In this document: positions 55,798 through 62,071 of the stretch, piece after piece | Numbering within the stretch: the stretch's first letter is position 1 | Layout: each line of letters opens with the position of its first letter | Source of the DNA: an uncultured Sphingomonadaceae bacterium | GTDB taxonomy: Bacteria > Pseudomonadota > Alphaproteobacteria > Sphingomonadales > Sphingomonadaceae | Assembly (NCBI GenBank): GCA_903871605.1 | Contig: CAIQHF010000036.1 | Coordinates: forward strand, 248,001-312,000 | Reading direction: 5' to 3' | DNA: 64,000 nt | Position numbers and translations under genes: made by a program | Notes under the pieces: generated by a model | The model's input: the letters and a program-made list of their open reading frames with translations, nothing else | The model's database searches: none | Told to the model about the DNA's origin: nothing

Positions 55798-55824
55798 GGA
55801 ACCGACTGGAAGCGGGGGCGTATT
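55798..55824 (+). promoter_or_regulatory. EcfG-type general-stress promoter upstream of the kai operon
   Basis: GGAAC (55798-55802), 16 nt, then CGTATT (55819-55824). The alphaproteobacterial EcfG (general stress response sigma factor) consensus is GGAAC-N16/17-CGTT, so the -35 is perfect and the -10 matches 3 of 4. It ends 24 nt before the first ATG of the operon, the right distance for a short leader. The match is by eye only. Confidence 0.55.
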
Positions 55825-55848
55825 GCTATCGTACATACGGATGGCGCA

Positions 55849-56010
55849 ATGAAGAAACCGGTTACTTTCAGAATGGATGCCGATCTGCTCGAGCGCGCGC
55901 GGCGCTTGGCTGATGCGGACAACCGATCGCTGACCAACTATATCGAAACCGCTTTGCGGCGGGCGATCGAGCCCGCTGCAGCCGACAGAAACCGGAAAGG
56001 TGATGCGTGA
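55849..56010 (+). CDS. Ribbon-helix-helix (CopG/Arc-like) protein, first gene of the kai operon
   Basis: A 53-aa protein with the RHH layout: a short strand KPVTFRMD, helix 1 ADLLERARRLADADN, and helix 2 SLTNYIETALRRAIE. These proteins are DNA-binding repressors or antitoxins. It has no adjacent toxin; its TGA stop overlaps the GTG start of kaiC (GTGA), which makes it part of the kai unit. It may autoregulate the operon or carry the output to DNA. GGATGG lies upstream of the ATG. Confidence 0.72.
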   Translation: MKKPVTFRMDADLLERARRLADADNRSLTNYIETALRRAIEPAAADRNRKGDA

Positions 56011-57710
56011 ACGGACCTGACATGCGTGCATCGTCGGCGGGCGGGGCTTTGCCCAAGTGCCTGACCGGCATAAGCGGCCTGGATGACGTGACGCTGGGCG
56101 GTCTCCCCGCGGGCCGCCCGACGCTCCTGTGCGGCGCTGCCGGATGCGGCAAGACGCTGTTCGCCATGACGTTCCTCGTCAACGGCGCGACACTGTACGG
56201 CGAGACCGGCGTCTTCATGAGCTTCGAGGAGCGTTCGCATGATCTGATCGAGAACGTCGCGTCGCTTGGCTATGATGTCGAGGCGCTGGTTTCGGACGGC
56301 CGGCTCGCGATCGATCATGTTCGCGTCGAATCCGCCGAAATCGAGGAGAGCGGCGAATATGATCTCGAGGCGCTGTTCGTTCGGCTCGGCTATGCGATCG
56401 ACCGGATCGGCGCCAAGCGCGTCGTGCTCGATACGATCGAGGCGCTCTTCTCGGGTTTCACCGACCAGGCGGTGTTGCGCGCCGAGCTACGCCGGCTGTT
56501 CGGCTGGCTGAAGGACAAGGGCGTCACCGCGATCATCACCGGCGAGCGTGGCGACGGCCAACTGACCCGCTACGGCATCGAGGAATATGTCTCCGACTGC
56601 GTGATCCTGCTCGACAATCGCGTACTCGACCAGGTGACGACGCGCCGTTTGAGGATCGTCAAATATCGCGGCTCGGCGCACGGCACCAACGAATATCCCT
56701 TCCTGATCGACGACCAGGGCATCAGCGTGATGCCGATCACCTCGGCGGGGCTCGAGCACCGCACTTCGTCCGCCGTAGTGCCCACAGGGGTCGCCGGGCT
56801 GGATGCGATGTTCGGCATCGGCGGCTTCTACCGCGGCTCGAGCGTACTGCTCTCCGGGCTTGCGGGCACCGGCAAATCGACGTTCAGCGCAAGCTTCGCC
56901 GATGCGGTCTGCAAGCGCGGCGAGAAATGCCTCTATTTCGCGTTCGAGGAATCGCCCGACCAAATCATCCGCAACATGCGCTCCGCGGGGATCGACCTGC
57001 AGCAACACCGCGACAGCGGACTGCTCCACTTCGAAGCGGCGCGACCGAGCCTCTACGGGCTCGAAATGCACCTCGCGCGGATGAACCGCGACATCGAGGA
57101 TTATGGCCCGGATGCAGTGGTGGTCGATCCGATCTCGGCATTCCGCGGCGTCCAATCCGAAATCCACGCGACGCTGTTGCGACTTGCCGACATTTGCAAG
57201 GCGCGTGGAATCACCGGCATCTTCACGAGCCTGTCGCTGGCGGCAGATCATGTCACCGAATCCGATCGCGGGGTCTCCTCGCTGATGGATAGCTGGATCT
57301 CGCTCACCGACGTCGAGGCGAGCGGCGAACGCAATCGCGTGCTTTACGTGCTCAAGTCGCGCGGAATGAAGCACAGCAACCAGATGCGCGAATATCTGCT
57401 GACCGACCACGGCATCGAACTGATCGAGCCCTATGTCGGGGTGCAGGGCGTGCTGACCGGCGCGGCGCGGCTCGCGCAGGAGGCGGCGGAGCGCGATGCC
57501 GCACTCGAGCGGGCGCAGGCGCGCGAGCGCCGCCGTCGCGATCTGCTGCGCAAGCGCGTCGCGATCGAACGACAGATCGCCGAGATGCAGGCATTGCTGC
57601 AGGCGGAGGAAGAAGAGGCGGCGTTGGTGCGCGCGCATGAGGCCGAACATGAGGGGGTGCTCACCGAGGATCGGGCGGCGATGGCCATCAAGCGTGGAGC
57701 GCCCGCATGA
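56007..57710 (+). CDS. kaiC: KaiC-family ATPase, double RecA domain
   Basis: A 567-aa protein with two RecA/KaiC repeats. Repeat 1 has Walker A GAAGCGKT (43-50), the catalytic Glu pair FEER (Glu74-75) and Walker B RVVLDT. Repeat 2 has GLAGTGKS (284-291), FEES (Glu314-315) and VVVDPIS. A Ser-Ser pair (424-425) sits where cyanobacterial KaiC has its Ser/Thr autophosphorylation sites. The last 85 residues are a charged helix (coiled-coil type). It has a GTG start coupled to the RHH gene and ATGA coupling to kaiB. No kaiA is present. It is expected to be an ATPase and autokinase in stress or timing control. Confidence 0.93.
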
Positions 57711-58033
57711 CCGAGACACGGATCGCCGAGGATCCCGCCATTCCGGGCCACTATAATCTGCGGCTCTATGTTGCCGGCCAGACCCCCAAGTCGCTCACCG
57801 CGATCGCCAATCTGAAGGCGATCTGCGAAGACCATCTCGCCGGCCGCTATACGATCGAGGTCATCGATCTGATCCAGAATCCGCAGCTCGCCGAAGGTGA
57901 TCAGATCCTCGCCGTACCGACGCTGGTCCGCCGCCTGCCGCCGCCGATCAAGCGCGTGATCGGCAATCTGTCGAATACACACCGCGTGCTCGTCGGGTTG
58001 GATATCCGCCCGCTCGACGACGTGCCTTCATGA
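57707..58033 (+). CDS. kaiB: KaiB-like protein (1)
   Basis: A 108-aa thioredoxin-like KaiB-fold protein: [41 protein letters not shown], and [22 protein letters not shown]. It should bind KaiC's ring and modulate its ATPase and phosphorylation. The start overlaps the kaiC stop (ATGA) and its stop overlaps the next gene (ATGA). Confidence 0.92.
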
Positions 58034-58344
58034 CGCAATCGGACGGCCCGCTTTATGTGCTTCGGCTTTTCGTCTCCGGCACCACCAGCCGATCTCAGCG
58101 CGCGATCGCCAACGTGCAGCACGTCTGCGAGGAGAGGCTGGCGGGCCGTTACGACCTCCAGGTCGTCGACGTCTATCAAGATCCCGAGGCGACGAGAGAC
58201 CTCCAGGTCGTCGCCACGCCGACGCTCGTGAAGCTCGAACCCGGGCCGATGCGCCGGATCGTCGGCGATCTTTCCAATCGCTCGAAGTTGCTTGTCGGGC
58301 TCGAACTACCGGAAAACGCCGGCAAGCGCGGAGCGGCATCGTGA
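58030..58344 (+). CDS. kaiB: KaiB-like protein (2)
   Basis: A second, divergent KaiB-fold protein of 104 aa: [43 protein letters not shown], and [23 protein letters not shown]. It is shorter than the first copy and differs in the loop before the KaiC-facing segment. Two KaiB-fold proteins in tandem suggest different partners, for example one for KaiC and one for the histidine kinase, as SasA carries a KaiB-like domain. Both ends overlap neighbours by 4 nt. Confidence 0.9.
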
Positions 58345-60374
58345 CCGCGCCGATCGACGCCATGCGCGCGCGGATAGAGCAGCTCGAGCAGCAGCTTCGC
58401 GAGGCCAACGAGACGCTTGACGCGATCCGCAACGGCGAGGTCGATGCGGTCGTCGTCGGCGGCCCCGAGGGTCAGATCGTCTATACGCTCGAAAATGCGG
58501 ACCGGCTCTATCGGGTGCTCGTCGAGCAGATGAAGGAGGGCGCGGTCACGCTCGGCGGCGACGGCATGATCCTCTATTGCAACAACAGCTTCGCGACGCT
58601 GATCGGTCGTCGTTTCGAGGATGTCGTCGGCTCGAGCCTGTTGGATCATGTCGCCGATCAGGCGATGGTCGAGCGGATGCTCGCCGCGCCGGATGCGATC
58701 GATGCGGCGGAGGTGACGCTCAAGGGTGTCGCTGCGCGCACGATTCCGGTCAACATGTCGATCGTCGAGCTGAACGTCGAAGCCGGAGCGCCGCGGATGC
58801 TCTGCGCGATCGCGACCGATCTGAGCCACAATTATGCGCGTGCGAGAGAGGTCGCCGAGGCGAATGCGCGGCTGGCAAGCGAGGTACAGCAACGCTCTCG
58901 TGCGGAGGAGAGCCTCGCGATCGCGCTCGATGCCGCCGACATGGCCAGCTGGGAGCTTTCCGGGGGCACCGAGATGACGACGTCGTGGGGCTTCGCGGTC
59001 GGCGTCGAGCAATTTGTCGAGGACGACCGGGCCGCGGTCGCATCGGCACTCGATCGGGCGCGGCACAGCGGCGCGCTCGAGTTTGAAAAGCGCATCGTGC
59101 GACCGACCGACGGTGCGCTGCGCTGGATCTACGTCAAAGGCCGGGGGCTGGCCGGACCCACGGGGCGCGACCGTCTCGCAGGCATCATGCTCGATGTCAC
59201 CGAGCGGCGGCTCGTCGACGAACAGCTCCGCCAGGCCCAGAAAATGGAGGCGGTGGGCCAGCTGACCGGTGGCATCGCACATGATTTCAACAATCTGCTG
59301 ATGATCATCGGCGGAAGCCTCGAAATCGTCGCGCGGCGCACGACGCTCGACGAACGCGGCCGCAAGCTGATCGACGCGGCGCAGATCGGCGTCGCGCGCG
59401 GCGCCAAGCTCAACCAGCAACTACTCGCCTTTGCGCGCCGCCAGGATATGCGCGTCGAGACGGTATGCATCAACAATCTGCTCCCGGACTTCGAGACGCT
59501 GCTCGACCGTGCTCTGGGGGAAGCCGTTCGCGTCCGGATCGAGCGCGGCCAGGATCTATGGCATTGCAGCACCGATCCGCATCAGCTCGAGACCGCGATC
59601 CTCAATCTCGCCATCAACGCGCGCGACGCGATGGAGAATGGAGGCGCGCTGACCTTGGTTACGGGCAATGTCGTCGTTGCGGGCGAATTCGCCCGGCGCT
59701 GGGATGCGACGCCGGGCGATTATGTCGTGACGTCGGTCACCGACACCGGATCCGGCATTGCGCCCGAGATCGTCGCCCGCGTGTTCGAGCCGTTTTTCAC
59801 CACCAAGGGTGTCGGGCGCGGTACCGGCCTGGGATTGAGCCAGGTCTACGGATTCGCCAGGCAATCGAGCGGGTTCGTTTCCATCGAGAGCAAGGCCGGG
59901 GTCGGCACGACGGTGAGCATTCACCTGCCGCGCGTCGTCGCGCCGGCCGCGGCCCCGCCCGCCGCTCGCATAGCGCCCGAGATCGAGCGTGCGCATGGTA
60001 AGATACTCGTCGTCGAGGACGACGGCGAGGTTCGCGCGGCAACCAGCGCGATGATCGAGGAACTGGGCTATACCGTCACCCCGGCCGCACAGGGTGCGCG
60101 CGCGCTCGAACTGTTGGTGGACGACGACACGATCGACATCGTCTTCACCGACGTGATCATGGCGACGGGCATGTCGGGGATCGAACTCGCGCGCGAGGTC
60201 CGCCGCCGCCGGCCCGATCTGCCCGTGCTGCTGACCTCGGGCTACACCGCGCAGCATCTGCTGCCCTCGACGGCCGGCGAGGATTTTCCGCTGCTGCGCA
60301 AGCCCTATACGATGGCCGACCTAGCGAAAGCGCTGCGTGCAGCGATGGAAGGGGTCGGCGAAACGCATCTCTGA
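58341..60374 (+). CDS. PAS-type hybrid histidine kinase with receiver domain
   Basis: A 677-aa soluble hybrid kinase: an N-terminal coiled coil (1-60), two PAS-type modules (about 60-165 and 190-290), HisKA with GGIAHDFNN (phospho-His314), a HATPase with NLAINARDAM, DTGSGI, FEPFFTTK and GTGLGLS, and a C-terminal receiver (ED at 559-560, phospho-Asp604 in FTDVIM, Lys654 in LRKPY). No transmembrane helix is seen, so it senses an internal signal. It has a GTG start overlapping the stop of the second kaiB. It is probably the output kinase of the KaiC system; its cognate response partner is not in the window. Confidence 0.93.
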   Translation: MTAPIDAMRARIEQLEQQLREANETLDAIRNGEVDAVVVGGPEGQIVYTLENADRLYRVLVEQMKEGAVTLGGDGMILYCNNSFATLIGRRFEDVVGSSLLDHVADQAMVERMLAAPDAIDAAEVTLKGVAARTIPVNMSIVELNVEAGAPRMLCAIATDLSHNYARAREVAEANARLASEVQQRSRAEESLAIALDAADMASWELSGGTEMTTSWGFAVGVEQFVEDDRAAVASALDRARHSGALEFEKRIVRPTDGALRWIYVKGRGLAGPTGRDRLAGIMLDVTERRLVDEQLRQAQKMEAVGQLTGGIAHDFNNLLMIIGGSLEIVARRTTLDERGRKLIDAAQIGVARGAKLNQQLLAFARRQDMRVETVCINNLLPDFETLLDRALGEAVRVRIERGQDLWHCSTDPHQLETAILNLAINARDAMENGGALTLVTGNVVVAGEFARRWDATPGDYVVTSVTDTGSGIAPEIVARVFEPFFTTKGVGRGTGLGLSQVYGFARQSSGFVSIESKAGVGTTVSIHLPRVVAPAAAPPAARIAPEIERAHGKILVVEDDGEVRAATSAMIEELGYTVTPAAQGARALELLVDDDTIDIVFTDVIMATGMSGIELAREVRRRRPDLPVLLTSGYTAQHLLPSTAGEDFPLLRKPYTMADLAKALRAAMEGVGETHL

Positions 60375-60451: not shown

Positions 60452-62071
60452 ATGTCGCCGCTTCGCCCGATCGCCGATCTCGACACGCACGAGGTCATCA
60501 ACCAACCGCCGCCCTTCGAGGACGTCGACCTCTTCGCCACCGATCGCGCCTTGGCGGACGGTGTCGCCAAGGCGGGCGGCGCCGGGCACGCCGCGCGGCT
60601 CGGCATGATCGGCCGGCGTTCCGGCTCGGCCGAGGTGATCGGCTGGGGCGTGGAGGCCAATCTCCACCCGCCCGAACTCGACACGCACGACCGCTGGGGG
60701 CGGCGGATCGACGAGGTCCGCTTCCACCCGGCGTATCACCGGCTGATGGCGCTGGGGCTCGAGGCGGGGTTCGCGAGCGTTGCCTGGGACGGCACCGCCG
60801 CAGGTCAGGTCGCCCACGCGGCGACGCTGTTCCTCACCGGCCAGCCCGACGCGGGCACGAGCTGCCCGATGACGATGACCTATGCCGCGGTTCCGGCGCT
60901 CGCGACAGAGCCGGCGGTGCGCGATGCATGGGTCCCGCGGATCCTCGCTGCGCGCTACGATCCCGCGGTGCGGCCGGCGACCGAGAAGACGGGCGTGACG
61001 ATCGGCATGGCGATGACCGAGAAGCAGGGCGGCTCCGACGTCCGCGCCAATGCGACCCGCGCCGAGCCGGTCGCCGACGCGGCGGGCTGGTATCGGCTGA
61101 CGGGGCATAAATGGTTTTGCTCGGCGCCGATGTGCGACGCCTTCCTGACACTGGCCTATGCGCCGGGTGGCCTGACCTGCTTCCTGCTGCCGCGCTGGCT
61201 GCCCGACGGCGCGCGCAATGCGGGCTTTCGTGTCGTCCGCCTGAAGGACAAGCTCGGCGATCGCTCCAACGCGTCCTCCGAGGTCGAATATCATGGTGCG
61301 CTCGCGCAGCGGATCGGGGAGGAGGGGCGCGGCGTCGCGACGATCATCCGGATGGTCCAGCATACCCGGCTCGATTGCGTCGTCGGATCGGCTAGCCAGA
61401 TGCGCGCCGCCCTAGCACAGGCGCTGTGGCATGCGGCCCACCGCTCGGCCTTCCAGAAGCGGTTGATCGATCAGCCCGCCATGGCGGCGGTGCTCGCCGA
61501 TCTCGCGATCGAAAGCGCGGCGGCGACCGCGCTTTCGCTGCGGATCGCGCAGGCGTTCGACGACGACGATCCGCTGACCCGCCTGCTCACGCCGATCGCC
61601 AAATATTGGGTGTGCAAGCGCGCGCCCGGAATGGTCGGCGAGGCGATGGAGTGCCATGGCGGCGCGGGCTATGTCGAAAGCGGGCCGATGCCGCGGCTGT
61701 TCCGCCAGTCGCCGCTCAACGCGATCTGGGAGGGATCGGGCAACGTCATCGCGCTCGATCTCCTGCGTGGGATCGCGCGCGAGCCCGAGGGCGTCGCTGC
61801 GCTGCGCGATTGGCTCGCGGCAGCACGCGGACGCGACACGCGCTACGACAGGTGGGAGGAGACGATCGACTTCTCAGTCGGCGAGGCGGGGGCGCGGCTA
61901 TTGGCCGAGCGCCTTGCGCTGGCGTGCCAGGCGGCGGTGCTGCTGAGGTGGGACGATCCGCTGGCCGAGGCCTTCTGTGCGCTGCGCCTGGCGCCGCGCG
62001 GATCGGCTTATGGCGCGTTTGATGGAGACGTGTATACGCGGGCGATCATCGCACGCGCCACGCCGGCCTGA
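60452..62071 (+). CDS. aidB: AidB-like acyl-CoA dehydrogenase
   Basis: A 539-aa protein of the AidB branch of acyl-CoA dehydrogenases: VINQPPPFEDVDLF at the start, AMTEKQGGSDVRANATRAE, GHKWFCSAPMCDAFL, MVQHTRLDCVVGSAS, ECHGGAGYVESGPMPRLFRQSPLNAIWEGSGNV. E. coli AidB (541 aa) belongs to the adaptive response to alkylation and binds DNA. The length and all diagnostic segments match. Stands alone behind the kai operon. Function in this organism (alkylation defence or acyl-CoA oxidation) is inferred. Confidence 0.87.
   Translation: MSPLRPIADLDTHEVINQPPPFEDVDLFATDRALADGVAKAGGAGHAARLGMIGRRSGSAEVIGWGVEANLHPPELDTHDRWGRRIDEVRFHPAYHRLMALGLEAGFASVAWDGTAAGQVAHAATLFLTGQPDAGTSCPMTMTYAAVPALATEPAVRDAWVPRILAARYDPAVRPATEKTGVTIGMAMTEKQGGSDVRANATRAEPVADAAGWYRLTGHKWFCSAPMCDAFLTLAYAPGGLTCFLLPRWLPDGARNAGFRVVRLKDKLGDRSNASSEVEYHGALAQRIGEEGRGVATIIRMVQHTRLDCVVGSASQMRAALAQALWHAAHRSAFQKRLIDQPAMAAVLADLAIESAAATALSLRIAQAFDDDDPLTRLLTPIAKYWVCKRAPGMVGEAMECHGGAGYVESGPMPRLFRQSPLNAIWEGSGNVIALDLLRGIAREPEGVAALRDWLAAARGRDTRYDRWEETIDFSVGEAGARLLAERLALACQAAVLLRWDDPLAEAFCALRLAPRGSAYGAFDGDVYTRAIIARATPA

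Follow-up and report, generated by a model that had tools for sequence, protein, structure and literature searches.

How a KaiBC module without KaiA makes contact with DNA is the question raised by a 64,000-nucleotide stretch (hereafter the window) of contig CAIQHF010000036.1 from an uncultured Sphingomonadaceae bacterium (assembly GCA_903871605.1). KaiA-less KaiBC modules are studied as simple timers, and the factors central to output from the cyanobacterial clock are for the most part absent from other organisms (PMC5520375, in part). In the window, genes for a ribbon-helix-helix (RHH) protein, KaiC, two KaiBs and a hybrid histidine kinase lie head to tail and overlap by 4 nucleotides at all four junctions, as originally noted; Pfam and NCBIfam assign the last four to KaiC, KaiB (twice) and PAS-HisKA-HATPase-REC. 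The fixed stoichiometry that had been read from these overlaps is not implied by coupling. The module is of a known kind; what is new is its RHH gene, through which a KaiA-less timer might be linked directly to DNA. With moderate confidence, we consider the RHH protein to be an autorepressor that descends from an antitoxin and is predicted to bind at the promoter of its own kai operon. A co-encoded protein of DNA-binding type, together with a candidate site at that promoter, makes the question of a DNA link testable.

An RHH gene linked to kaiC

The 53-residue protein encoded by the first gene matches DUF6364 and RHH_1 in Pfam, below the curated cut-offs. Its AlphaFold model (predicted local distance difference test score of 82, predicted template modelling score of 0.55) has an N-terminal stretch followed by two helices (residues 11-23 and 28-49). 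Its top PDB matches in Foldseek are the CopASO antitoxin, Rv0298 and Arc, with CopG bound to DNA lower in the ranking and template modelling scores of up to 0.81. The predicted structure resembles that of RHH repressors.

Relatives of the window KaiC were sought in 84,980 species genomes using two short patterns that had been derived by aligning eight KaiCs; of at least 586 confirmed relatives, the best 80 were retained. These, the window, 16 loci from further genomes and five from plasmids make up a set of 102 loci. In 96 of these, the window protein as query gave 10 matches at E < 1, all directly 5' of kaiC, and a profile built from such matches found the gene in 12 loci, again always directly 5' of kaiC and on the same strand. 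The profile detected no RHH elsewhere in the 96 neighbourhoods (1,049,530 bases in six frames). With the six later loci added the count is 13 of 102, and all 13 fall within a single group of 34 loci that we delimited on the KaiC tree; outside this group the gene was found in none of 68 loci. The group consists of a starred set of 30 rows, which holds 10 of the 13 RHH loci, and four loci that are not firmly placed (L051, L035, L038 and L102). It is mainly alphaproteobacterial, with four beta- or gammaproteobacterial members (L025, L027, L033 and L037). The presence of RHH requires seven changes on the KaiC tree, a pattern which may reflect one gain with losses, or transfer. In Pararhizobium the operon is on a plasmid typed as conjugative, and the RHH gene is annotated there as a member of the YlcI/YnfO family.

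Searches that began from RHH rather than from KaiC gave the same association. In 20 chosen genomes, the strong profile matches (>60 bits) were the known ones and one more, which precedes a second complete operon. One Methylobacterium genome thus carries two RHH-kaiC-kaiB-kaiB-kinase operons (L150 and L042). Among 248 genomes from the family of this organism, where up to 25 candidates per genome were scored, there were nine matches at 1e-6; the four above 60 bits all precede kaiC, and the fifth best (48 bits) does not. In all, three new kai-linked RHH loci were found in this way (L150, L153 and L154). Intact kai-linked proteins score at least 64 bits, non-kai matches below 49 and a decayed-looking copy (L028) 27. 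The original prediction that RHH belongs to the operon, which was to be given up if the gene were absent before kaiC in all relatives, stands because it is conserved elsewhere. No kai-linked RHH was found in print within the open-licence literature, some of it judged by title or start of abstract and most subscription papers lying outside this scope; on this basis the conserved gene is apparently undescribed.

The DNA-binding core of the protein is under purifying selection. In three Methylobacterium pairs, nonsynonymous divergence (dN) in the core (codons 2-41) is 0.01-0.04 and synonymous divergence (dS) 0.35-1.08, while the tail has a dN of 0.17-0.42 and a dS of 0.18-0.66 (dN/dS about 0.6-0.9). 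Three farther pairs give a core dN/dS of 0.09-0.14, so that the ratio over all six is about 0.03-0.14, although dS is almost saturated in the farther pairs.

The protein resembles the VapB-like RHH antitoxins in fold, in size, in the position of its gene before that of its partner and in the overlap with it, but the partner in the window is kaiC and not a toxin gene. The weaker RHH matches are antitoxin-like, and all four whose neighbours were tested (L157, L159, L141 and L143) precede genes for PIN domains; no PIN-type gene lies directly behind the matches in L136 and L140, and the neighbours of the remaining ones were viewed as open frames. These likenesses suggest that the protein was derived from an antitoxin-like repressor. 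They could also mean that it acts on KaiC at the protein level, as an antitoxin does on its toxin, a use to which the antitoxin-like gene position, the overlap and the PIN-linked relatives would be suited. The C-terminal tail, which is the toxin-binding part of an antitoxin, varies in length and sequence, however, and looks little constrained, which makes such an action very improbable.

A candidate operator and its rivals

An inverted repeat of the type GTATTGC-N5-GCAATAC was first noticed by eye in the stretches upstream of the RHH genes. Using a threshold of at least 11 of 14 matches, in the 200 bases before RHH or, for loci that lack it, the 300 bases before kaiC, the repeat with a spacer of 5 is present in 9 of the 13 RHH loci against 0.15 expected from shuffles; among the other spacers between 0 and 25, none gave more than two. 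None of the 21 loci of the group that lack RHH has it. The same sequence emerged with no preset motif: when 7-mers were counted over the 100 bases 5' of RHH, GTATTGC ranked first, with 11 of 16 loci, ahead of an overlapping 7-mer with six. When each locus was left out in turn and its near kin removed from the training set, 12 of the 16 loci scored at a level reached by no more than two of 1000 shuffles (none of 1000 for the window), and of the loci gathered after the motif had been set, L150 and L154 have the repeat and L153 does not. The arms of individual sites at spacer 5 match each other at a mean of 4.83 of 7 positions in the 12 RHH loci with L029, L030, L034 and L153 left out, compared with 1.88 of 7 in eight Methylobacterium loci that lack RHH; the p value of 0.0002 is too good because the rows are related.

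In the window, the left arm of the repeat covers the CGTAT of a putative promoter, GGAAC-N16-CGTAT, the spacing of which is common to the window, L023 and L022, three loci that form a starred set in the tree. L022, which has no RHH, keeps the promoter pattern and lacks an intact repeat. The EcfG motif of Sphingomonas melonis is GGAAC-N17-20-GTT, although GTA is the ending of one of the sites listed (PMC6599016, in part). Taken alone the pattern is not significant in the window (one seen, 0.37 expected and one present in 32 of 100 shuffles). L153 was rejected as a further example of this promoter, as its GGAAC is separated from CGTATT, by our count, by 14 bases instead of 16.

In the proposed mechanism, RHH dimers would bind the repeat, which ends nine bases 5' of the RHH start codon and covers the putative -10 element, and the bound protein would hold down the expression of the whole coupled set of five genes, with a possible effect on timing. 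Up to one mismatch, the genome contains three sites of the window type, of which the only exact one is the kai site itself, and a control pattern also gives three. With the consensus and up to two mismatches, ten RHH genomes or records have 11 sites, at least two of them kai sites, against nine for the control, and the window's genome has none against one (its own site has three mismatches). This lack of excess favours autoregulation over a large regulon. It also bears on the possibility that RHH is the transcriptional output of the module, regulating other genes according to the state of KaiC. In favour of that role, no other protein of the operon has a DNA-binding type of fold among the listed families, and the RHH gene overlaps kaiC, but the counts so close to the control led us to reject a genome-wide output and leave this role improbable. 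Of the two roles originally offered for RHH, DNA-level output and autoregulator, the second fits best.

Several observations weigh against the autorepressor. The Foldseek E-values are weak (best 0.018, none below 0.001), the motif was at first picked by eye and many of the loci are kin. Four RHH loci (L029, L030, L034 and L153) have no clear repeat in the leave-one-out analysis, and one RHH-less locus outside the group has it at spacer 5 (L067; 1 of 67). In the window the arms at spacer 5 match each other at four of seven positions, less than a chance pairing at spacer 19 (five of seven). The gene is missing from 21 of the 34 loci of the group, and the kai module therefore works without it. 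The pattern TTGC-N19-TA recurs in 14 of 19 sites, and the left arm of the repeat may therefore be a -35 element. The main difficulty is that in the eight Methylobacterium loci without RHH these arms recur at spacer 15, with an own-arm symmetry of 5.0 of 7; seven of the eight reach the threshold, equal to 7 of the 21 RHH-less loci of the group. An RHH acting in trans on these arms was considered and rejected, as the RHH-less Methylobacterium genomes searched contain no strong kai-type RHH and only weak matches. Another reader or promoter elements may therefore explain them, and the second arm at spacer 15 may represent conservation of a -10 element or the site of another protein.

Such repeats in loci without RHH, the promoter-like TTGC-N19-TA pattern, the decayed-looking copies in L028 and L034 and the patchy presence (13 of 34 loci) would all fit a repeat that serves a different regulator or is part of the promoter, with RHH a relic antitoxin-type gene of little or no regulatory role. 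This explanation is less easily reconciled with purifying selection on the core, with the confinement of the spacer-5 repeat to RHH loci inside the group and with the three RHH-kaiC pairs that emerged from the RHH-first search, and we regard it as unlikely, though less so than the other rivals. Autorepression remains the preferred interpretation.

As to the sites themselves, the spacer-15 repeats (L036, L039, L045, L047, L048, L049, L053 and L054) lie about 55 to 290 bases before kaiC and are one helical turn wider. The RHH gene of L029 has no usual start codon.

The KaiA-less module

The window KaiC is double-domain, with both Walker/Glu sets (Glu pairs 74-75 and 314-315), and Ser424-Ser425 align with the Ser pair of the Rhodobacter sphaeroides KaiC, in accordance with the original description. 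The latter protein (8DBA, 568 residues) is its best match in the PDB, aligned over residues 15-564, tail included, with 58.6% identity over residues 17-485. In R. sphaeroides the tail is a coiled coil that joins two hexamers, and the phosphorylation sites are Ser413 and Ser414 (PMC10076222, in part). By alignment, the C-terminal extension of the window KaiC may likewise form a coiled coil, and the protein may be an active autokinase. No match to KaiA was found in the window's genome by a search that among 14 control genomes detected KaiA in Synechococcus elongatus only. The operon thus has the features of the R. sphaeroides type of module, namely a double-domain KaiC with a Ser-Ser site and extension, a linked KaiB and no KaiA; it differs in that R. 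sphaeroides (Cereibacter) has kaiC, a single kaiB and an HWE kinase, with no RHH found. It shares KaiB and KaiC with the cyanobacterial KaiABC system with SasA and RpaA, but its genome has no KaiA match and its kinase no listed KaiB domain. We interpret the operon as a KaiBC module for timing or stress that lacks KaiA and is of the same kind as those of R. sphaeroides or Methylobacterium (kaiC1).

The original emphasis on two KaiBs and a kinase was misplaced, as this is the usual layout among the relatives retrieved and has been published. Of the best 80 loci, 73 have two or more kaiB genes behind kaiC, which excludes the second KaiB as the novelty; the other seven (L022, L026, L055, L059, L061, L081 and L093) show one, and in L022 and L093 the sequence stops no more than 25 bases past that gene. 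Two or more are likewise present in 79 of the 102 loci, while six have none behind kaiC, five of these having one in front. The loci include Bacteroidota, Planctomycetota, Cyanobacteriota and the archaeal Methanoperedens; L010 and L052 encode identical KaiCs. Clusters of kaiC and kaiB adjoining kinases were described in 2011 (PMC3164672, in part). Methylobacterium extorquens AM1 has a kaiC1-kaiB2-kaiB1-kaiR1 cluster and a kaiC2-kaiR2 pair, and its kaiC1 mutant is sensitive to UV (PMC8069551, in part). The window has the same order of kaiC, two kaiBs and a regulator, whereas the published description of the AM1 cluster, by which alone the two were compared, mentions no RHH in the part available.

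The five-gene arrangement is rare in Sphingomonadales. A KaiC match at 1e-60 was found in 4 of 199 Sphingomonadaceae genomes (one distant, at 38%) and in 13 of 385 from Alphaproteobacteria, and at 1e-120 in 2 of 396 from Sphingomonadales, the window's own included each time. The gene order that was to be sought in sphingomonads was recovered in one Novosphingobium metagenome-assembled genome (MAG; L023), which has all five genes, but not in the three other close kaiC loci found (G084, G182 and G866), where a single KaiB is present and RHH is absent.

In a tree of 169 KaiBs, from which L011, L014, L060 and L058 were left out, the 76 second copies require two label changes against a shuffled mean of 55.7 and form, with four single KaiBs, a starred set of 80; the sequences are short and 92 of 164 forks are open. 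Mean column identity in 23 loci chosen from the group is 53% for second copies compared with 68% for first copies. A profile of second KaiBs finds the N-terminal domain of SasA (E = 4.9e-7), which one of first KaiBs does not find at 0.001. In the window's kinase, a second PAS domain is just below the cut-off, and Pfam lists no KaiB domain. In the favoured explanation, KaiC and the first KaiB would together run through the phosphorylation states, and readout would fall to the second KaiB and the kinase. The operon may thereby contain the complete sensing-to-output chain first envisaged. It can be speculated that the second KaiB and this kinase constitute a split SasA. Joined to the repressor, a split SasA would give a transcription loop, in which the activity of the RHH made from the operon follows the state of KaiC or the amount of RHH, and the SasA-like second KaiB signals the state to the kinase that has no KaiB domain. 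Such a loop seems doubtful at present; if true, the module would reset itself rather than act as a passive hourglass.

In L058 (a MAG from Planctomycetota) kaiC is followed by a run of four kaiB genes, and in L060 (an archaeal genome) by three. Kinase types were called by short motifs in open frames, with several loci having no type or ending too early. On this basis two KaiBs lie downstream in 27 of 29 loci with HDFNN kinases (exceptions L026 and L021). A rule that HWE kinases always accompany one KaiB was discarded: it is true in 7 of 11 loci with the HWE motif (L007, L055, L059 and L104-L107) and fails in L052, L062, L070 and L074.

Operon layout and neighbouring genes

The coordinates are given in Table 1. 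The GGAAC element, from which the originally delimited region starts, lies 51 nucleotides 5' of the RHH ATG. In the 34-locus group, three junctions were tallied using a script which, among several in-frame starts, favours one that yields an overlap of 4 or 1 nucleotides. On this count 4-nucleotide overlaps are found between kaiC and kaiB in 28 of 34 loci, between the two kaiBs in 28 of 32 and between RHH and kaiC in 6 of 13, with 11 nucleotides in four more.

Table 1 Features of the kai operon and its upstream region, numbered from the first base of the window.
Feature	Position	Strand	Remarks
ECF-type (extracytoplasmic function) promoter, putative, GGAAC-N16-CGTAT (= GGAAC-N17-GTA)	55798..55823	+	Spacing common to window, L023 and L022
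Inverted repeat CGTATTGC-N5-TACATACG, putative RHH operator	55819..55839	.	Over putative -10; exact site occurs once in the genome
RHH protein, putative autorepressor	55849..56010	+	53 residues, ATG start
kaiC, double-domain	56007..57710	+	GTG start; C-terminal extension alignable to that of R. sphaeroides KaiC
kaiB, first copy	57707..58033	+	Outside the second-copy set in the KaiB tree
kaiB, second copy	58030..58344	+	Separate, more variable group; weak similarity to SasA N-terminal domain
Hybrid histidine kinase, PAS-HisKA (HDFNN)-HATPase-REC	58341..60374	+	GTG start

The genome has exactly two KaiB matches, both in the operon, and one NYN-domain match, on contig C5; LabA is a member of the NYN-domain family. 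A second kaiC (504 residues) followed by a gene for a 657-residue kinase, with no KaiB, is present on contig C48 (80640-84127; L152 2641-6128, minus strand), and this pair resembles kaiC2-kaiR2 of M. extorquens AM1 as described in part of the published account. Just 3' of the operon, on the same strand, is a gene for an AidB-like acyl-CoA dehydrogenase (60452-62071 of the window).

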